Source: a virus. Taken from it: a stretch of 20,256 bases of DNA. Of the stretch, positions 3,783 to 13,919 are shown piece after piece (within the stretch, counting starts at the first letter, position 1; each line of letters begins with the position of its first letter). A program made the translations under genes and the position numbers. The stretch lies in the IMG/VR virus record IMGVR_UViG_3300043449_000261, positions 1-20,256 of that record. The stretch is one strand, 5' to 3'. Below the pieces are notes generated by a model, which saw only the letters and a program-made list of their open reading frames with translations, searched no databases and had not been told where the DNA came from.

Positions 3783-4781
3783 TTAATTGCGGCGACCGTT
3801 GTTACGGTCGAAATCAATGAACTGCTTGACCATTCGTGCTTTGCGCTCAGGGTTGTCCCACGCGCCAACTTCTTTCATCGCTTTAACTCGATCAGGCGAT
3901 AGAACAAATTGGGTTCTGTTGGAACCACCATATGCCGCTGAAGCTTCGCGTCCTGCACTTCCCACAATATTCCTCGGTCGTCTGACATTACGGGGTTCGT
4001 CGTCATTACCATCATTGTAACGATGTGGCAACTCTTTCTGCAAGCGACTATCCAATTCGTCCCAATAATCAGGATCGGTTGGATTCCACCCCTGTGCAGT
4101 CATGAGTTCGTCGATCTTTTTGGTGATCCGGCTGTCCTTGTCAGTTCCAGCAGGGTTATACCAATTGTTCTTGGCAACCCAGTTGGACGCCAGACGCTTA
4201 ACCTCTGGATCAACCCCTTGTTCATCTTGATGATCAGGCTCTCTCCGCAGTTCCTGATCAGCCTTTTGCCTCATGTAGCTGAGATTACGCACTTCTTCCT
4301 GTGCGCTCTGCCACAGAGTCTGAGCTTCCACCATTGCTTGACCATCGTTGTTGTCGGTGGCCTCGGCAAGCTTCATCTTGGCGTATTCAAGGCGCACATT
4401 GGCGTCCTCAATACCTTTATCGATGCGAGTGACATGCTCACTCTTGGTGTTCCGCTCCAGTTGTCCTAAGCGCCGCTTGAATTCCTCATTTTCCCTCTGC
4501 AGAGAAGTCAAACGAGCGTCTTTTTCCTGATTTGTCTTGCGGATCAGTTCCTTTTTGGCGCGGCGACGGTTCCTTTTTGCCTGCCGAAGCTCTTCATCAT
4601 CATCAGGATGGTCTGTATCCTCTTCCGATACAGCGCCACCATCTGCTTTGACAACCGGATCAGCGTTTTGATCGCCATCCTCAGCCTCATTCATCATTTT
4701 TTCCGGCAAAATCACCGTTGCAGAGCCATCTTGACTCTCCGTAACAGCAATTTCTTCGGCTTTTTCTTTGGTTTCAGCCAT
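3783..4781 (-). CDS. Putative scaffolding protein (acidic N-terminus, coiled coil, basic C-terminal tail)
   Basis: This 332-residue protein has the layout expected of a phage scaffold. Residues 1-65 are acidic and disordered. Residues 65-180 are a long charged region with heptad-like spacing (RRRAKKELIRK, LQRENEEFKRRLGQLERN). A mid-section holds Trp/Asn/Pro motifs, and the basic C-terminus (RKARMVKQFIDFDRNNGRRN) resembles the short coat-binding helices of P22-type scaffolds. Residues 14-27 (TESQDGSATVILPE) share a motif with the portal N-terminus. The gene precedes the capsid gene, the usual position. It lacks a protease motif. Scaffold function is inferred from architecture and order, since scaffolds have little sequence conservation. 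Confidence 0.7.
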   Translation of the reverse strand: MAETKEKAEEIAVTESQDGSATVILPEKMMNEAEDGDQNADPVVKADGGAVSEEDTDHPDDDEELRQAKRNRRRAKKELIRKTNQEKDARLTSLQRENEEFKRRLGQLERNTKSEHVTRIDKGIEDANVRLEYAKMKLAEATDNNDGQAMVEAQTLWQSAQEEVRNLSYMRQKADQELRREPDHQDEQGVDPEVKRLASNWVAKNNWYNPAGTDKDSRITKKIDELMTAQGWNPTDPDYWDELDSRLQKELPHRYNDGNDDEPRNVRRPRNIVGSAGREASAAYGGSNRTQFVLSPDRVKAMKEVGAWDNPERKARMVKQFIDFDRNNGRRN

Positions 4782-4792
4782 TTTTCATATCC

Positions 4793-5248
4793 TTAGACGT
4801 AAGCTTTGAAGGAAAGTGGGTTTGCAACGACCTTTGCGATCAGTTCATGATCATTCAGAGTCATGAAAAGCACAGGATCGTCATCATCGTTACCGCTGGG
4901 AACCTTAATCTCCCATCGGTCACCGCCCCATTTCGGAACACGTACGTAATCGCCCACCTGCGCCCATGAGCCTTCAGGCCATGACTGCATTGTGTCGCGA
5001 TTCTTGTACGCAAGTGGGCCAACAGCGATCACTTTGCCGATCATGTTGTTCCACTTCTCGTTCTCTTTGGTCTCTTGAACCAAAACAATACGCTCCGATT
5101 TCTTCTTGATTCGCCTAAGCTGGACAATGATGCGTCCACCAAACGGTTCCATCCCCGATGCTACGTTAGGGAAAGCCCAGTCCAAATCTGACTGACTCGG
5201 GACATCATACGATGCTTCAAATGTTGCTATTTTTACTACTTCGCTCAT
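4793..5248 (-). CDS. Phage-encoded GroES-like co-chaperonin (Cpn10 family)
   Basis: The 151-residue protein carries a GroES-like domain at about residues 35-146. It opens PFGGRIIVQLRRIKKKSERI, continues GKVIAVGP (71-78) and VGDYVRVPKWGG, and ends LFMTLNDHELIAKV. These match GroES landmarks in order: the opening strand, mobile loop, GxVxAVG strand, VGDxV strand, and the final strand and helix. Within the mobile loop, IVL at residues 54-56 aligns with the GroEL-binding IVL of GroES. It would cap host GroEL, as T4 gp31 does for capsid folding. There is a 34-residue N-terminal extension. I chose the start at 5248 because AGGAGA lies seven bases upstream; the longer frame from 5281 has no such site. 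Its place next to the scaffold and capsid genes suggests coat-protein folding. Confidence 0.85.
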   Translation of the reverse strand: MSEVVKIATFEASYDVPSQSDLDWAFPNVASGMEPFGGRIIVQLRRIKKKSERIVLVQETKENEKWNNMIGKVIAVGPLAYKNRDTMQSWPEGSWAQVGDYVRVPKWGGDRWEIKVPSGNDDDDPVLFMTLNDHELIAKVVANPLSFKAYV

Positions 5249-5287
5249 CTTACTTCTCCTAACACCATATCTCAGGTGCATCGTTAT

Positions 5288-5671: not shown

Positions 5672-8122
5672 TTATTGTGGTGCGGCGGGGGCCGCTTGTG
5701 GTGCAGGCATTGCTTGAGGTGGCGGCAAAGCCTGCGGTTGAGTCTGAGCCGTCTGTTCAATAATCTCATGCGTTAATTTTGCATTCTCAATGGCAATCTT
5801 TGTCTGATTGTCAGTGGTATGTTCTTGCATCTCATTCTGAAGCTTGGCTTGTGCAATCTGCAGATCAGCCTGATCCTTTTGAGTCTTGCGCTGGGTCTCA
5901 GCCATGCTTGTATCCTTGACCACCTGTGCATCTGGTGGCAAAGGAGGCAGTTGACCCTTGCGCTGTTGCGCCATCTTCACCAGTGTCTGCAGTGCGTGCT
6001 GGAACTGACCAAACACTTCATTGCTGTCCAGCATTACGTGTGCGCCAACGGTTGTATATACCTTGTCGATCTCGGCGGTTAGCTTTGGATCGTTGTAGTC
6101 ATCAACCGGCTTGCCAATTGATTTCTCCACATACCCATTTGACCGGTTCAAATACCACAAAGTCATGTGCTGCTTTGTGTGTTCAATCAAGTTGTTTAGG
6201 TAGTTTGGATCGGCAAATGGGGACTGACCCAAGAAAGGATTCATAGCAAACTGCAAGTGGTCTTGCATGTGAGCAATGTGATCCTGTTGCAAGTAAGCAT
6301 AGGCCGGTTGCCCAATCAACATAGCCGCGTTCTCATCGGCAGATGTTCTTTGCTCAGGAGCGGGGACATCCTTCAACAGTTCGTTGATGTTTGGAACCTT
6401 CATCTGTTTCAAGACTCGGGCCAAAACACCACTGATGTTGAACTCGTTTGGATGCTTATCTGCAAGCGCCAGAACAGCTTGGTTCTGCGCCATACGCTGA
6501 GTCTCAGAGAAGATGTGCGGATCGCTGACCGGAACTACGTCCGTATTCTTGTCAAAGTCCTCGCGAGTGATCTCCAAATCAACAACGACATCGCTCTTCT
6601 CCATCTCGTCAAAGTGCCAACGGTTTAACCGGCACAAGACTTTCAGCACACGCGCTTGCGAATCATGCAGACGAGCATGGATAGCACTGAATACCGCAGC
6701 GCCCTGCTCGATCAGTGCTTGAGTGGTGCCTACGGGCGTATTGGAGGTCACATCAGCGATCTTTTCCTCGCTGGTGGTGATAACCCCCTTAGCAGCTTGA
6801 TCTAGCCAGCCTAGAAGCTGGAATAGCACCGCAGAAGGGGGGTTGAACGGCATCGGCATTGCAATCTGACGAATGTCTTGCACGCCGGGTGCGCCTTCGA
6901 TCTCCACCACCTGAGTCACATCCACCTGTGCGCTCTGACCACTGATCTTCGCACCCTTCAACTTCAGCATGGTTGCTGAGTTGTTGATGTGAGCAGTATC
7001 CAGCAGCGCACGCAAAGCGCCAGTAAGCGCCGCAGACAAGCCGCCAATCAGTTGTGGCAAGCCAATCGCATACGCTCCACGCCATGGAATGAACTTGAAT
7101 TCCACCACCCAATCCAGCTTGGTGCGAGTCTTGTCCTTTTCTTCCCAGTTTCGATACAAACCGACAACTTCATTGTCCAATTCGTCGATCATCAAGATGT
7201 AGGGAGCGTATTCACCCTTCGTCTTGTTGTCGTCTTCCAGTTCAAGGAAGCAATAGATGTGGTAAACCTTGCGGATACCATCCTTGTTTGTCTCAAACTG
7301 CTTGCCCTCAATCTTGTTGTTGGCCTGCTCAACCTTGTTCTGTTCAAGCGTGCCAGTCGCTTTCATGATATTGACATCGCGATACATGCCAGTGCGAACA
7401 CGACGTTCAAACTCATACTGCGTCAGTTCATGCACCTCGGCAGCACGCTGCGCGGTGTAGAAGTTGGTCGCAGCAAACGGTAGGATCACGCGGTCGATCG
7501 GTAGGAACTCAACAACCGGACGCTTCTTCTGCTCATCAAACCACAGCTTGAAGTATTGCGATCCTCCCAGCGGCAGTTGAGTCAGTAGCTGCTCCTGCTC
7601 ATCGCGGAACTCTTCGATCTGCTCGGTGATCTGCCAGTTCAGGAAGTCACGCTTGCGCTCAGACTTCGCTGCCTTGATGTCGTCCATCTTGCCAATGATC
7701 TTGGTCTTGACGGGGCCATCAGGAGGGAACAGTTCTTTGATCGCTCTAGCGGCAAAGTCTACGCAGCCTTCAGCCATCGCAGGATGAACGACCTTGCTGG
7801 CACCCATGAAGGTTGCCCCACCGGGGGCGTCTTCCCCCATACCAGTCCGTCTAATCCCCTCCTCATACTGCTTGTCCCGCCTCTCCCGCGCCTGCTTATC
7901 CGTCTCCAGCAGGTCAAGGTAATGTGACGACATGCCACGCAGCGTCCCGTCTGACATTGAGTCAGCAAGGTTGTCGTAGAAGTCAGGATTGAACTCAGGC
8001 CCATCATCCAGCGTGATTACCGCCGATCCGTCAGCACGTTCTTCCGTCTCCATCTCAGGAAGATCAACAACGGCGCTACCGTCAACCTGTTCTTCCGTCT
8101 GATATTCCTCTTGAGGTTCCAT
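5672..8122 (-). CDS. Portal protein
   Basis: The 816-residue protein should form the dodecameric portal ring through which DNA enters and leaves the head. The central region has portal-type features: PLGGSQYFKLWFDE, the segment from IAMPMPFNPPSAVLFQLLGW into LDQAAKGVITTSEE, and TPVGTTQALIEQGAAVFSAI. Its length is near the 725 residues of P22 gp1, larger than siphovirus portals. The N-terminus holds two copies of a DGSAVxxL motif (residues 10-23 and 27-40), also seen in the scaffold-like protein. The last 80 residues are a Gln/Ala-rich helix and a Pro/Ala tail, comparable to the C-terminal barrel of P22 portals. Its ATG shares a base with the stop of the upstream gene (TAATG), indicating coupled translation. 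Confidence 0.85.
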   Translation of the reverse strand: MEPQEEYQTEEQVDGSAVVDLPEMETEERADGSAVITLDDGPEFNPDFYDNLADSMSDGTLRGMSSHYLDLLETDKQARERRDKQYEEGIRRTGMGEDAPGGATFMGASKVVHPAMAEGCVDFAARAIKELFPPDGPVKTKIIGKMDDIKAAKSERKRDFLNWQITEQIEEFRDEQEQLLTQLPLGGSQYFKLWFDEQKKRPVVEFLPIDRVILPFAATNFYTAQRAAEVHELTQYEFERRVRTGMYRDVNIMKATGTLEQNKVEQANNKIEGKQFETNKDGIRKVYHIYCFLELEDDNKTKGEYAPYILMIDELDNEVVGLYRNWEEKDKTRTKLDWVVEFKFIPWRGAYAIGLPQLIGGLSAALTGALRALLDTAHINNSATMLKLKGAKISGQSAQVDVTQVVEIEGAPGVQDIRQIAMPMPFNPPSAVLFQLLGWLDQAAKGVITTSEEKIADVTSNTPVGTTQALIEQGAAVFSAIHARLHDSQARVLKVLCRLNRWHFDEMEKSDVVVDLEITREDFDKNTDVVPVSDPHIFSETQRMAQNQAVLALADKHPNEFNISGVLARVLKQMKVPNINELLKDVPAPEQRTSADENAAMLIGQPAYAYLQQDHIAHMQDHLQFAMNPFLGQSPFADPNYLNNLIEHTKQHMTLWYLNRSNGYVEKSIGKPVDDYNDPKLTAEIDKVYTTVGAHVMLDSNEVFGQFQHALQTLVKMAQQRKGQLPPLPPDAQVVKDTSMAETQRKTQKDQADLQIAQAKLQNEMQEHTTDNQTKIAIENAKLTHEIIEQTAQTQPQALPPPQAMPAPQAAPAAPQ

Positions 8123-10410
8123 TATTTAACCTTTTTCCGCATGATCATCTCGTATTTCATGGTGTCCGGTTTAGTGTGAACAACTACCGATCTTTTGTGG
8201 ACATGACCGCCGTGCGCCTTGGTCTGCACTATATCTCCCTCTTCATCAGGATCACGCCGATGGGCAAGGTGCGCCATAGCAGCAAAGCTTTGCTCAGGAA
8301 ATTCCATATTGTCTCCAAAACTTTCGCCATGATGCACTGAACCACCATCTGCTTTGAACTGAATAGGTCTCGGCGCAACATATTCTTTGCCAGACGCAGA
8401 ATCTTGATGATGCGGAGAATCAATCTCATATTCTCCATTGTTACGCTTGGCATGCTCAAGGTGACTTTCATCAACATTGTGCGTGAACGACGAATTATGC
8501 CCGACATTACTCGTTGATTCAGTAGGCGTTGTCATCAATATAGCACCAGCGTTTTTTCCATTCTTAGTCTTGAACCGATTCTTTGGAAGAAAGTCCTCAT
8601 CCTTAAACCTTGAGTCGGTAGGAATCATATGCGGAGTGCCATCCTCATTCTTGCCAACCTGAACCAATCTCGAATGAAGGATATGCTGCTTCTGATAGTC
8701 GTAACGCTTGTCATTGACTACCGCATGCCCATAGTGCGCCTTATCAGGCGTCGTAGGCTTGCCATTGCCATTAAAGTGACCTTCTGCACCCTCTTCTTTC
8801 TCTGACTCAGAGAGACTGCTGGTAGGTCTGCCGGTAGACCAATACTTCGCATGCGTAATCGACTTCTGCATCTTTTTATCCAACGCAGAATGACGTTTTA
8901 CGTTGGTGACCATGTATGAATTCTTCGGAGGCGTCACGTTGTTATCGTCATTCTTGAAGTCTTCACCATTTGCTTTGGTGGCGGTAATTGTATTTCTGAC
9001 ACGTTGCTTATCACGCGCAATGTTCTCAGCAATAGATTTACCGTGCTTTGTCTTCGGGCCTACGTTTGAATGCGTAACATAGTATCCATTCTCAGGATCA
9101 TGCAACTCATTGGTCTTGCCATATGAGTTCGCAATAATTCTAGGCTTGTCCTCTGCTTTGCGTTGCTTATTCAGGTGCCTGATGGCATGCCGTGACGAAA
9201 CGTCAGTCTCATCAACTACGTTCGGTCTGAACAACAAACGATTGTTTTTTCTGTCAGCAAGACGCGCTGCATTACGCAGTGATCCTGTGTGCGCCAGAAT
9301 CCAATCTTTGGTCATGGCGGGGTCGTGCTTTGCCTGCTCATGGCATGATCTTCGAATAGCAGCGCCAGCGTATTGGGTTTCAGCTACCGGAGCAAAACAG
9401 GTTCCTTTGCTGGTGTCTACAATGCCATGCTCATCAACACCACCGCCACAACCGGTGGTCTGACCGGGACAGGTGTTCAATATGTGATGCTTCTGATTCT
9501 CTCCATGACCAGACGTATACAACGCATGCCCTGCAACACCTTTAGACGCAAATCCAATGTAGGTTCGACCCTGCTTATCATGCTCATGACGAACCGTATC
9601 AAGCTTTTCACTTTCGTCCAAAGTGTTTGCGGTCTTGCCAAGGTGTTTTGCTGCACGCAACTTATCCAATGATGCCTTTTCATCGGCATTCTGTTGCTCA
9701 ATAGGTTTGTTGAAATGCTCTTCCAATGTTTTCTTATGGATATCACCAACCTGACCAATTGTCAGCGGAGTTCTGTTCTCACTGCCATAGACATCTGCAC
9801 GCGCTTTGTTGATGTCCTTCATGCCCTCATTTGTCTTACTTCCGAACCACATGTGACGCGGAGCTTTAATTCCTTTGACGCCACCCGAACCTTCGGCAGG
9901 AAACAAAATACGGCTGGAAACTTTTTCTGGCTTACCCTTGCTCTCTATTTCATCTTTCATCTCAGCTACGGATTTAGCCGATCCACCACTCTTCATGCCC
10001 TGTGGCTTAAGAGGCTGCTGCGGCCCTCCCATCGCGCCCAGAGCCTGTCCCTGCGGTGTCATCGATAGCATGTTACCCATAGGAGGAGCGCCTGCCGGAG
10101 CGCCCAGAGGAGCGCCCTGTGGCCCTTGTGGGCCTTGCGGTTGACCTTGGGGAAGACCACCCTGCGGCTGCATCATCGACTGAGGGAGCATTTGCTGACC
10201 GGCCTGCTGTTGACTCATGTCGATCCCACCAACCGGCATGCCGTTGCTCATGTTCACCCCACCAACAGGCGGCGTCTGACCGTCGCCAGCGTCTGGAGAT
10301 ACGAATGACTTCGGTGACATGCTGGGAGCTTCGCTTGCGCCAATGTTCTGGATATTGACAGGATTCTTTCCAGCTATTGCCAGACGCATTTGTGCCAGTG
10401 TGGGTTGCAT
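8122..10410 (-). CDS. Large KGG-motif protein with a gp88-like four-cysteine centre
   Basis: This 762-residue protein lies between the polyvalent protein and the portal. Residues 1-140 are Gln/Pro/Gly/Met-rich, with a collagen-like stretch at 84-107 (GPQGPQGAPLGAPAGAP). Residues 141-158 (SGGSAKSVAEMKDEIESK) look like a module boundary. The folded centre (about 165-480) contains the only four cysteines, C314, C321, C338 and C356, in TCPGQTTGCGGG, GTCFAPV and RRSCHEQ. This resembles the TCPG...C...CYA signature of the phage gp88 family. The second half is His/Lys/Asn-rich and ends with KADGGSVHHGE and KAHGGHVHKR. Four cysteines suggest a metal or iron-sulphur site. The family link is from memory and tentative. 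It may be an injected or head-internal protein. AAGGA precedes the start, inside the end of the previous gene. Confidence 0.8.
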   Translation of the reverse strand: MQPTLAQMRLAIAGKNPVNIQNIGASEAPSMSPKSFVSPDAGDGQTPPVGGVNMSNGMPVGGIDMSQQQAGQQMLPQSMMQPQGGLPQGQPQGPQGPQGAPLGAPAGAPPMGNMLSMTPQGQALGAMGGPQQPLKPQGMKSGGSAKSVAEMKDEIESKGKPEKVSSRILFPAEGSGGVKGIKAPRHMWFGSKTNEGMKDINKARADVYGSENRTPLTIGQVGDIHKKTLEEHFNKPIEQQNADEKASLDKLRAAKHLGKTANTLDESEKLDTVRHEHDKQGRTYIGFASKGVAGHALYTSGHGENQKHHILNTCPGQTTGCGGGVDEHGIVDTSKGTCFAPVAETQYAGAAIRRSCHEQAKHDPAMTKDWILAHTGSLRNAARLADRKNNRLLFRPNVVDETDVSSRHAIRHLNKQRKAEDKPRIIANSYGKTNELHDPENGYYVTHSNVGPKTKHGKSIAENIARDKQRVRNTITATKANGEDFKNDDNNVTPPKNSYMVTNVKRHSALDKKMQKSITHAKYWSTGRPTSSLSESEKEEGAEGHFNGNGKPTTPDKAHYGHAVVNDKRYDYQKQHILHSRLVQVGKNEDGTPHMIPTDSRFKDEDFLPKNRFKTKNGKNAGAILMTTPTESTSNVGHNSSFTHNVDESHLEHAKRNNGEYEIDSPHHQDSASGKEYVAPRPIQFKADGGSVHHGESFGDNMEFPEQSFAAMAHLAHRRDPDEEGDIVQTKAHGGHVHKRSVVVHTKPDTMKYEMIMRKKVK

Positions 10411-10412
10411 AA

Positions 10413-13400
10413 TTAATCCTTAAAATTCTGTAGTAGCGACGTTGAGCCGCCGTGCTTGAAACCCCAATCCTTTAGATTGAGCGGCTCACTACGAGGCAAG
10501 TCAGATACCTTTGCCTTCTTGTTGATCTTCTGCACTTCTTCATCAGGCAGAACTCGCTTCACTTTCATCTCACCACCAATCAACCAACTGCCAGACATAT
10601 TCGGATTGGTCTTGTAGCGATAGTGACCGCCCTTCGGAATCTGATCGGTGATGTGTGCATTCTTGGCAATCAGCTTGCCCTTCTTGTTCATGCCGCGTTC
10701 GTTGGCTTTCTTTTGCCAGTCTACATCATTTGGCATGTCGATCTCAGCCCACACCTGATTGTTGGGTCGGCGGTCGGGCTTGTTCAGCTTCGGATCAGAC
10801 TTCTCGCCAATGTGAGTGGCGATCGGAAGATCACCCGCATGCCAGCCCGGTCGGTAAGCCAAGGGGCCAATCTTTGACTTTACTTTTTTCCCAGCCATCT
10901 CGCCAGCCTTTGCCGGAACCCATTTGTCCTTTTCGACCGGAGTATTCGCATCCACAAAAAGCGGAAAGAGCTTGCCGGGTTGCTTTTTGTCCACGCGGAA
11001 TAGCTTGTAGGCAGGCACAGTGCTTTTCGGTTCCTTCATACCGCCACCATTCCCCATCAACGAATAACGCATTGCGTCCAAGCTTGGTGGCTTTACTGCG
11101 CCACCATTAGATTTGGTAACACCATACTTTGCCTTGATGTATTGAACGGCCTTTCCAGTATCGCCGCCCAAATTGTCATGCTTGCCAGTCAATACATTAT
11201 TCAAGGACTGTTTGTTATCTTCTGAATCAAGATATCGTGCATGCCTGTGCCAAGGATAGTGAGCGGCAATGATGTCTTTAGGCGCGACATCACGCAATAC
11301 AAACGGTGACTGCCAATGTTCTTTGGGAACTTGGAACTCAAGCGTAGGTCTTTCTGCTGCCTTGCCATAGAACGGAGTCTCTCCAGCATAGATGGCTCTC
11401 GGCCCTTCTATCCCCTTGGCGTGCTTGAGCAGTAATCCCTCCCTCTCAATCTTCCGAAGATTATTCTCATCAGTCTGGTGATACAGACGAACGTGACCCT
11501 CTTTCAGAGGAGTGCTGCCAGCTTCTGCAGGCAAAGGCTTGACGCTACCACCCTTGTTGTAACGTGACTGGCCCTTGCTCATGATGTCCTCACGCATCTG
11601 CGGAGTGATATCAAATGAATGCAGGTTCATTGCACGTTGTTCAGCGATACTTTTCCTGTGTATTTCTTTGGCCTCTGCAGACTGGTCTGAGGTCATGTCC
11701 CTCTGATTGACGCCGAACCGCTCCATACCAATGCGGTTCATGTCATCTGTATTTGGGACGTAATCGCTCCAGTTGTAGTCCTTGTTGGGATCATCCATAC
11801 GATAAGTCCCAACCTTTGCGCCCCACTTCTTGCCATACTTGTTGAGGAAGTCAGGAACGATCTTGTCGTAGAAGCCCTTCATACCTTCATCACCAGTCTT
11901 GAGGTCAAGATTGGATAAGGTCATCTTGCCAGCATGACGCCCAGTTTGAGGAACATAGCTCTGCACCTGACCAGATGGATCGCCGACACGCATGGGGTTG
12001 CCTTCACCCGCCATGATCTTCTTCGCAATACCTTTGCCAACATACCGATGAATCTTGTGGTGCGGGACATCCTCTTCATGCAAGACCGTGCTGCCGCTCT
12101 CTTTGTCGGTCGCCATCAGGCTCACGGTTTTATCGGGATTGTGCTTGTAGTTTATCTCGCCAATGTGTTTGCTTAGGTCATACCGCTTGGCTTGTTCGGC
12201 ACCGGGCGTGATGATCATCTTGTCGTAGCCATTCTTCACGGCATGATCCAACAGATGCTTCAGCGCCAGTTCATGCCAGTCTTTCTTAAAGGGAGCATCG
12301 GGAACTACCCTGTTTGAAAGCAATTGCCTGCGCCTTGATTCTTCTTCTGGCGTAAGCTTTTCATCCCTAGCCAATTTATCAACAATATGTTTACGTTCCT
12401 CTGGGGTTCCATATCCCCAGTTGGTCGGCACAGATTTCTTTGCCTCCTCTTCGGGCATGCCTTTTTCAACTAGACGGTCAATCTCTTCATGCCGAAGATC
12501 GCGTGCCTGTTGATGCCAGTCCGACTGTATCTCCTCAACGTGCAGTATCTTCTCCCCGTTTGGGCCTTTGCGGTCGGAGACCCTTGCATGCGCCAGAATG
12601 TTCGGCTCGTCTTTAAAGTGCGAGGATTTAAAATTATTTGATGCGCCGTAACCTAAACTTAATTCCCCTTTTCCATATGCACCTCGATTTTTTTCCTGAA
12701 CCGGCAGCTTCAGTTTGATCTCGCGGTAGTTGTTCCCGCCCTTCAACTGATACTTCTCATACTGCGTCTTGTTTTCCTTCAGCCGATTGATGGCTCCCTC
12801 AGCATTCTGCTGCGTCTCAAACGGCCCTGAGATACGCTTGCCCGTATCGTTGAGGACGTAATGCTTATCGTCATCACCCTTTTGAGTGACAAAGAAATCA
12901 CTCTTGTGCGCCACGCTCTCAGTGATCTTTGGCATGGGGTTCTCTGATGCAATGCGTTGCACATCAGGCAATCCCATCTTGCCAGTCATCTTCTGTTCGA
13001 GGCCGCGATCCTCAATCTCCTGCGGCTTGACGCCATGGGTGTTGCGGATCATCGATAGGTATTGGTCGCCAGTCCCTTTGGCCTGACTCAGCTTGGATAT
13101 GGCTTGATCGACCGGTGAGTAGAACGGTTGCCCACCGTCAGCCATGCGAATGGCACCACCTTTGGCCTTATACGTAGTTACACGTACGGAGTTCCCCTCA
13201 TGGATAGCGCCACCCTTGGCTTCCCTGTGGACGACCTTCATGATGTGTTCGTTGCCGGGGAAGACTACGAAGTTGCGCGTTCCCTCGCCAGCATCGCGTG
13301 AGTTTTGGTCAAGGTATTTGATGCCAGCAACCCCAGCGCGTCTCAGCTTATCTGATGCCGCCTTTGCGGTCATACCATACTGGTTATACAGGTCTTGGCC

Positions 13401-13919
13401 CAACGTATCGTGAGGCGCATCAGGCAACTCCTGTCTGATCGCAGCCTGCACATGCGGATGCTGCTCACTCAGCGGCTTGTCCCAGTCCAGCATCTTCTCA
13501 ATATGCTCATGCGGTATGCGAACGTGGTAGAGCGCACCGACAGTTCTAGGTATTTTTTCAATCTGTTTTATTACATGCTCTCCAGCTTTTCCATGAATAT
13601 CCCGCAATTCTGTTGGCGTTTTATGAGTTAAGGAATTTTCAAGAATTTCCATTGCCAAAAAGTTGCCCCTTGTTGCGGCGGCGTTGTATAACTTCAACAA
13701 TCTTTTTTCATTAGCAAAATCTCTTGGTTGATATACTTTGGCAACATTTGGACTTTCAGCAAGGTAATGCCCATATCCATAAGCCTGCGCTCCCTCACCA
13801 GTCCCGATCTTCGTTGGGTCGAACTCGCCAAGCGGGTTCTTCTCGGTCGGTGAAAAGCGGTGCGGTGAGCCGTGATAGGCGTTGAGTTCCTGCTTCATTT
13901 GCTCAAGTGATTTGGGCAT
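10413..13919 (-). CDS. Multidomain polyvalent protein with ADP-ribosyltransferase-like modules
   Basis: This 1168-residue protein has four visible modules. Residues 14-225 match polyvalent-protein ADP-ribosyltransferases: AYHGSPHRF, IGTGEGAQAYGYGHYLAE and, at the end, GIKYLDQNSRDAGEGTRNFV. Residues 265-785 look like a large polyvalent-associated domain: YSPVDQAISKLSQAKGT, NILAHARVSDR, ILHVEEIQSDWHQQAR, PDAPFKKDWHELALK and DEGMKGFYDKI. Residues 803-930 look like a second ART-like fold: GHVRLYHQTDENN, GPRAIYAGETPFYG. Residues 967-1146 form a further domain: KLFPLFVDANTPV, LAYRPGWHAGDLPIATH, QVWAEI, YRYKTNPNM, GSWLIGGEMKV. KGG linkers separate them. Such proteins are thought to be delivered with phage DNA and to act on the host or its defences. 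AGAGGA lies six bases before the start. Target and activity are unknown. Confidence 0.85.
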   Translation of the reverse strand: MPKSLEQMKQELNAYHGSPHRFSPTEKNPLGEFDPTKIGTGEGAQAYGYGHYLAESPNVAKVYQPRDFANEKRLLKLYNAAATRGNFLAMEILENSLTHKTPTELRDIHGKAGEHVIKQIEKIPRTVGALYHVRIPHEHIEKMLDWDKPLSEQHPHVQAAIRQELPDAPHDTLGQDLYNQYGMTAKAASDKLRRAGVAGIKYLDQNSRDAGEGTRNFVVFPGNEHIMKVVHREAKGGAIHEGNSVRVTTYKAKGGAIRMADGGQPFYSPVDQAISKLSQAKGTGDQYLSMIRNTHGVKPQEIEDRGLEQKMTGKMGLPDVQRIASENPMPKITESVAHKSDFFVTQKGDDDKHYVLNDTGKRISGPFETQQNAEGAINRLKENKTQYEKYQLKGGNNYREIKLKLPVQEKNRGAYGKGELSLGYGASNNFKSSHFKDEPNILAHARVSDRKGPNGEKILHVEEIQSDWHQQARDLRHEEIDRLVEKGMPEEEAKKSVPTNWGYGTPEERKHIVDKLARDEKLTPEEESRRRQLLSNRVVPDAPFKKDWHELALKHLLDHAVKNGYDKMIITPGAEQAKRYDLSKHIGEINYKHNPDKTVSLMATDKESGSTVLHEEDVPHHKIHRYVGKGIAKKIMAGEGNPMRVGDPSGQVQSYVPQTGRHAGKMTLSNLDLKTGDEGMKGFYDKIVPDFLNKYGKKWGAKVGTYRMDDPNKDYNWSDYVPNTDDMNRIGMERFGVNQRDMTSDQSAEAKEIHRKSIAEQRAMNLHSFDITPQMREDIMSKGQSRYNKGGSVKPLPAEAGSTPLKEGHVRLYHQTDENNLRKIEREGLLLKHAKGIEGPRAIYAGETPFYGKAAERPTLEFQVPKEHWQSPFVLRDVAPKDIIAAHYPWHRHARYLDSEDNKQSLNNVLTGKHDNLGGDTGKAVQYIKAKYGVTKSNGGAVKPPSLDAMRYSLMGNGGGMKEPKSTVPAYKLFRVDKKQPGKLFPLFVDANTPVEKDKWVPAKAGEMAGKKVKSKIGPLAYRPGWHAGDLPIATHIGEKSDPKLNKPDRRPNNQVWAEIDMPNDVDWQKKANERGMNKKGKLIAKNAHITDQIPKGGHYRYKTNPNMSGSWLIGGEMKVKRVLPDEEVQKINKKAKVSDLPRSEPLNLKDWGFKHGGSTSLLQNFKD

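Follow-up and report, generated by a model that had tools for sequence, protein, structure and literature searches.

A short protein motif at the termini and module junctions of large multimodule proteins from the terminase-portal gene block of an uncultured podovirus and related phages

Two very large proteins are encoded between the terminase and portal genes of an uncultured podovirus, and a short motif stands at the N-terminus of each and again inside each chain; the question raised by this locus is what such a motif is for. The window, that is, the whole stretch of DNA analyzed here, is a 20,256-base virus record whose minus strand carries, in order, genes for the small terminase, the large terminase, an 1168-residue protein, a 762-residue protein, the portal, a GroES-like protein, a scaffold-like protein, and the capsid protein. 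The sequence-only reading of this locus had proposed that the motif is a reusable module header, possibly a capsid-targeting or processing signal, and that the two proteins are polyproteins cut or loaded during head assembly. The relevant features are as follows.

10413..13919, minus strand: 1168-residue protein, with an ART-like module (residues 14-234), a GNAT-like fold (266-783), an unassigned stretch at 798-936, and a phrog_30118 module (969-1154)
8122..10410, minus strand: 762-residue protein, with a core at about residues 163-685 that is a GP88-family (PF17338) module
10369..10407, minus strand: copy 1, QPTLAQMRLAIAG, residues 2-14 (N-terminus) of the 762-residue protein, with a predicted helix at 5-13; 31.5 bits on the score matrix (PSSM)
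9940..9978, minus strand: copy 2, AKSVAEMKDEIES, residues 145-157 of the 762-residue protein, directly ahead of the GP88-like core; 20.6 bits
9979..9993, minus strand: Gly-Gly linker KSGGS ahead of copy 2, with codons GGT GGA and without a start codon
13878..13916, minus strand: copy 3, PKSLEQMKQELNA, residues 2-14 (N-terminus) of the 1168-residue protein; 27.6 bits
11052..11090, minus strand: copy 4, PPSLDAMRYSLMG, residues 944-956 of the 1168-residue protein, ahead of the phrog_30118 module; 23.8 bits
11091..11111, minus strand: Gly-Gly linker SNGGAVK ahead of copy 4
8125..8178, minus strand: degenerate C-terminal copy HTKPDTMKYEMIMRKKVK of the 762-residue protein, directly ahead of the portal start, with a predicted helix at 748-761
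10417..10421, minus strand: AAGGA, read from the sequence as the Shine-Dalgarno site of the 762-residue gene, within the last codons (NFKD and stop) of the 1168-residue gene

The motif in the window and the modules that it adjoins

All four segments that had been aligned in the sequence-only reading are present at the residues given and align without gaps, and the glycine-pair linkers described there (KSGGSAKS and SNGGAVKP) do precede both internal copies. Scored as [ST][LVI]xxM[KR]xx[ILV], a pattern that was picked post hoc from the window and then held in other sequences, the motif matches only at these four copies within the two proteins, where shuffling leads one to expect 0.02 matches per pair. 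The glycine codons of KSGGS lie in a linker that has no start codon, and this linker is therefore a protein-level feature. Gly-Gly linkers also occur in the 1168-residue protein at the boundaries near residues 236-262 and 790, where the motif is absent. The two genes are separate (split) in the window, and the location of ribosome-binding sites within the final codons of upstream genes suggests, on inspection of the sequence, translational coupling across the block; the final KK[AV]K of the 762-residue protein (KKVK and stop in the window) can similarly be read as overlapping the portal ribosome-binding site. The GroES-like gene encodes a co-chaperonin (Cpn10, phrog_3188) and occupies window positions 4793-5281, between the portal and scaffold-like genes.

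The core of the 762-residue protein is a member of the GP88 family: the PF17338 profile matches all 62 of 62 homologues of this core at an E value of 0.01 or below (best, 8.5e-7), the window's own core alone scoring below the curated cutoff, and GP88-domain structures in BFVD match it with E values down to 4e-11. A literature search on GP88 gave nothing. The N-terminal module of the 1168-residue protein is assigned as ART-like because relatives match PF18760, which was found in 4 of 35 of them, the match in the L112 homologue being weak. A GNAT-like fold (Z scores up to 11.2) that contains a large insertion makes up the middle of the same protein. Residues 798-936 (window positions 11112-11528) have no Pfam match; the segment RLYHQTDENNLRKIEREGL within them looks, by eye, like ART-type folds. 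Neither large protein had a match in a sequence search of the PDB, and Foldseek searches of the PDB with both models returned nothing at an E value of 0.001 or below.

Structure prediction supports a short helix, clearly for the copies in the 762-residue protein and weakly for that at residue 944. The AlphaFold model of the 762-residue protein (mean pLDDT, 73.7) has a confident core, and its helices at 5-13, 148-157, and 748-761 are isolated, within stretches mostly under a pLDDT of 60; that of copy 2 is predicted to sit in a disordered linker. The model of the 1168-residue protein is poor (mean pLDDT, 59.6), with copy 3 forming a helix at 5-14 of low confidence and copy 4 merely a short helix at 948-953 with a pLDDT under 50, so that a helix at copy 4 is extrapolated from the pattern of the sequence. 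The four conserved positions (1, 4, 5, and 8) share a single 100-degree arc, tighter than that of any other among 70 choices of positions, and the hydrophobic moment over 11 residues was not above that of shuffled sequences.

Distribution of the motif among related phage loci

Relatives were collected in two fetches by protein similarity, of 80 and 51 loci; one of the six query peptides of the first (AEMKDEIE) overlaps the motif, which entails some selection, and those of the second do not overlap it. All open reading frames (ORFs) of these loci together hold 75 copies after Gly-Gly and 28 at N-termini, against 0.15 and 0.2 in shuffled sequences, and copies elsewhere in the fetched ORFs are at chance level (4 versus 3.7). 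A DNA pattern for linker plus motif gave 103 further stretches, some of them in contigs fetched before. Over approximately 230 related phage loci there are 195 copies so placed, compared with about 1 by shuffling: 157 follow Gly-Gly and 38 are N-terminal (shuffles, 0.4 and 0.5). New copies were also held by 2 of 3 contigs fetched later. A matrix of 13 columns, applied with a threshold of 15 bits, recovers 219 distinct copies, of which 154 follow Gly-Gly, 39 are N-terminal, 16 are C-terminal, and 10 are not preceded by Gly-Gly.

The motif is confined to one place in these genomes. Among ORFs of at least 100 residues, it is carried by 111 of the 189 in the terminase-portal block and by none of the 1046 placed elsewhere, another 27 lying in loci without an anchor gene. 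When whole records of 15 relatives were searched with a 22-column profile, each held one to four copies, nearly all within one block, and the few matches outside it were weak (E values above 0.004). Module homologues are detectable by tblastn in CRP-212, HTVC028P, and phiGT1, and the profile found no copy in any of the three; nor was the motif found on ART-like module homologues from other phage groups, and it is because of these homologues that we regard the motif as tracking the phage lineage and not the module family. PhiGT1 is a cultured Sulfitobacter phage for which virion mass spectrometry has been published, and in it the ART-like module homologue (phiGT1_5, L234) lies between portal and scaffold; for the phage group of the window itself, no virion proteome was found. 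Two metagenome-assembled genomes that hold relatives are named Rubrivivax and Betaproteobacteria, a weak hint as to the host. Since codons differ between copies while residues hold, conservation acts at the protein level, and a DNA-level repeat as the origin of the motif was rejected on the same ground. The motif is a real protein-level family across related loci.

It is also more than a header, as C-terminal capping by the motif, which is new here, makes plain. A related form, [LMI]D[TA]MxxE[LM]..K, a pattern drawn up after examples had been viewed, occurs in 50 of the 86 proteins whose end lies at the portal start and in 5 of 1522 other ORFs. The window's own C-terminal copy fails the matrix threshold and is recognized by its position and its homologues only (e.g., HKDLDTMRLELTKRK and stop). 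The notion of a reusable module header is well supported, in that one motif precedes unrelated modules in one gene block and moves with them; it caps C-termini too and is missing from some module boundaries. Sequences downstream of the motif group into 18 clusters, of which half are singletons, and by our own reading of the cluster list about ten unrelated module types appear to follow it; what we found is a short motif common to unrelated modules of one phage. The motif moves with its module: in the window protein the phrog_30118 module comes last (969-1154, motif at 944), and in a relative it comes first (L014; 40-229, motif at 13). Loss of the motif from module starts in homologues, the outcome named beforehand as fatal to the header proposal, was looked for and did not overturn it; no motif was found at the corresponding place in 16 of 71 core homologues.

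A second motif, DGSA[VT][VI]x[LI][PD], was observed in the neighboring head genes, twice at the N-terminus of the portal (8057-8083 and 8006-8032) and once in the scaffold-like protein of 332 residues (4704-4730). Across loci it is carried by 77 of 121 portal ORFs, by 58 of 65 scaffold ORFs, and by a single further ORF that resembles a fragment of the scaffold; it recurs in the later contigs L235 and L237. The motif may be a docking site that these proteins share during head assembly.

A docking tag and its alternatives

We suggest, with a probability of roughly one-half, that the motif is a helical docking tag, iterated along these proteins, by which exchangeable effector modules are recruited, the probable destination being the head as it assembles. 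Recruitment of this kind is the best explanation for the presence of a common tag on unrelated modules adjoining head genes; the position of the genes between terminase and portal is, as a sign of packaging in the virion, only suggestive. The tag spans some 12 residues, with the consensus P-[ST]-[LIV]-x-[QE]-M-[RK]-x-[AE]-L. It can be read as a short helix that has an N-cap box and bears a stripe of conserved residues (L1, M4, R/K5, and L8), and Gly-Gly linkers join it to neighboring modules; it is placed at the N-terminus, between modules, or, in its related form, at the C-terminus of the multimodule terminase-portal proteins. Each copy would most likely bind one repeated component of the head, be it the scaffold, the portal, or the coat protein, and modules of any kind that bear a tag would thereby be recruited, packed, and then delivered along with the DNA; encapsidation of the tag-bearing proteins is what we infer. 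Genes of the block are repeatedly fused or split, with the tag staying with its module. Copies on different modules within a genome are no more alike than copies from different genomes (P = 0.63), and genome-specific coevolution with a partner, sought through such likeness, accordingly gave no sign.

The strongest alternative, which we consider unlikely but by some distance the best of those remaining, is that the motif is what is left of the N-termini of formerly separate genes, internal copies being points of fusion that need no docking role, and that Gly-Gly is largely a Shine-Dalgarno sequence read in frame at a junction that acts as an internal start. In its favor, neighboring genes are fused in frame in many relatives, and in many of these the Gly-Gly codons form a Shine-Dalgarno sequence (GGAGG), 4 to 6 nucleotides ahead of an in-frame GTG or ATG that corresponds to the start of the split gene; the V of KAEGGNVQP, for example, aligns with Met1 of the split 762-residue gene, which in one relative (L030) begins GTG CAA CCA at that very codon, with TAAGGAG upstream. 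Where GGx[VM] includes a start codon, a Shine-Dalgarno sequence is present at 40 of 46 junctions followed by the motif versus 32 of 148 others, in a Fisher test that ignores kinship between sequences. Over 68 junction clusters, formed under 85% identity, the mean Shine-Dalgarno score is 2.65 versus 1.44 for synonymous recodings, and 12 of the 68 reach P < 0.05; V/GTG junctions score 5 to 8 against about 1 to 2 when recoded, while for ATG junctions the recoded versions often score nearly as high. The tree of the core has 31 fused sequences that carry such a site, 10 fused ones that lack it, and 12 split ones, and it requires at least nine changes between split and fused states. On these grounds, internal initiation appears likely in many relatives. 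Against the motif being a relic and nothing else, the junctions are bimodal, some having AAGGAGG, 4 nucleotides, and an in-frame GTG and others lacking a start codon that is paired with a Shine-Dalgarno sequence; about half of the junction clusters are of the latter kind, the junctions of both internal copies of the window among them. Moreover, the motif is found at C-termini, and its conservation as protein over unrelated modules requires a reason at the protein level.

The docking reading includes the initiation-like DNA: a ribosome-binding site and start codon are kept in the linker of many fused forms, so that the downstream part is probably produced by itself as well. More tentatively, and as a possibility to which we give rather less credence than to docking as such, the position-independent helix may act as a plug-in address code. 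Any effector module that it flanks would be loaded into the head, and modules would be free to be exchanged, fused, or split; the Gly-Gly linker would have a second role as a ribosome-binding site, with the fusion and, separately, the product of its downstream part coming from one gene.

It is improbable that the motif is no more than a joint, structural or evolutionary, in the form of a linker helix that modules tolerate between them and that serves recombination: module shuffling and fusion are indeed frequent, but copies at termini are no linkers, DNA identity is not kept between copies, whose codons differ, and the motif is missing where these modules occur in other phage groups. Least probable of all, and in our view very doubtful, is cutting of the Gly-Gly adjoining the motif by a phage or host protease during head maturation, although Gly-Gly precedes 154 of 219 copies and DarA of phage P1 is believed to undergo processing (PMC9024508). 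What is conserved is not the glycine pair but a probable helix, and a cut at the C-terminal copies would free just a tail. Prohead proteases of families S78, S14, and S49, the three families searched for, were not found in the contigs of 14 relatives, which may be incomplete, in a search whose controls worked, and no protease was seen among the named head genes of the window. The capsid protein, judged from its sequence, seems to have no obvious long N-terminal extension. The proposal of polyproteins cut in head assembly thus finds no support in the 14 relatives, and the model of a cut leader is at odds with the presence of copies at both termini.

Comparison with known packaged proteins

How large injected phage proteins are selected for the head is understood in few phages. 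A tag of 12 residues on many unrelated modules would give a testable rule, applicable to sequence alone, for spotting packaged effectors, and a candidate loading tag for protein delivery with phage heads. The idea that it is a capsid-targeting signal akin to that of the T4 internal proteins is plausible as an analogy. Those proteins are packaged defense proteins, otherwise diverse, in which the capsid targeting sequence is the sole shared part (PMC3012670); like the present motif, it is a short N-terminal sequence common to diverse proteins, but the motif described here is repeated and stands also between modules and at C-termini, the sequences do not match, and of the protease step of T4 there is no sign. 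The likeness to DarB of P1 is that of a huge multidomain protein that is packaged, its 30 N-terminal residues being sufficient for entry into the capsid (PMC9024508). The N-termini of DarB, DarA, and other Dar proteins do not match the motif, however, and P1, unlike these relatives as far as S78, S14, and S49 are concerned, has a prohead protease. The best scores of P1 Dar and T4 IPII and IPIII N-termini against our matrix lie between -3.9 and -13.4 bits, compared with the threshold of 15; in view of this lack of sequence similarity, the motif is not classed as a member of either group of signals.

Encapsulation peptides and repeat scaffolds of microcompartments, such as CsoS2 (PMC11365436), offer a likeness in concept only, and no homology is claimed: in them, cargo is brought to a shell by short repeats that lie in disordered stretches. 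A parallel in architecture is provided by the polyvalent proteins of phages, which are predicted to be packaged (Iyer et al., 2017; PMC5512222). No common tag between modules is reported in the passages of that survey on linkers, tags, repeats, and head targeting; the likeness to these proteins lies in the multimodule build, the ART-like and GNAT-like modules, and the terminase-portal context, and several different domains, including ones of the published set, are joined in one polypeptide at the locus described here.
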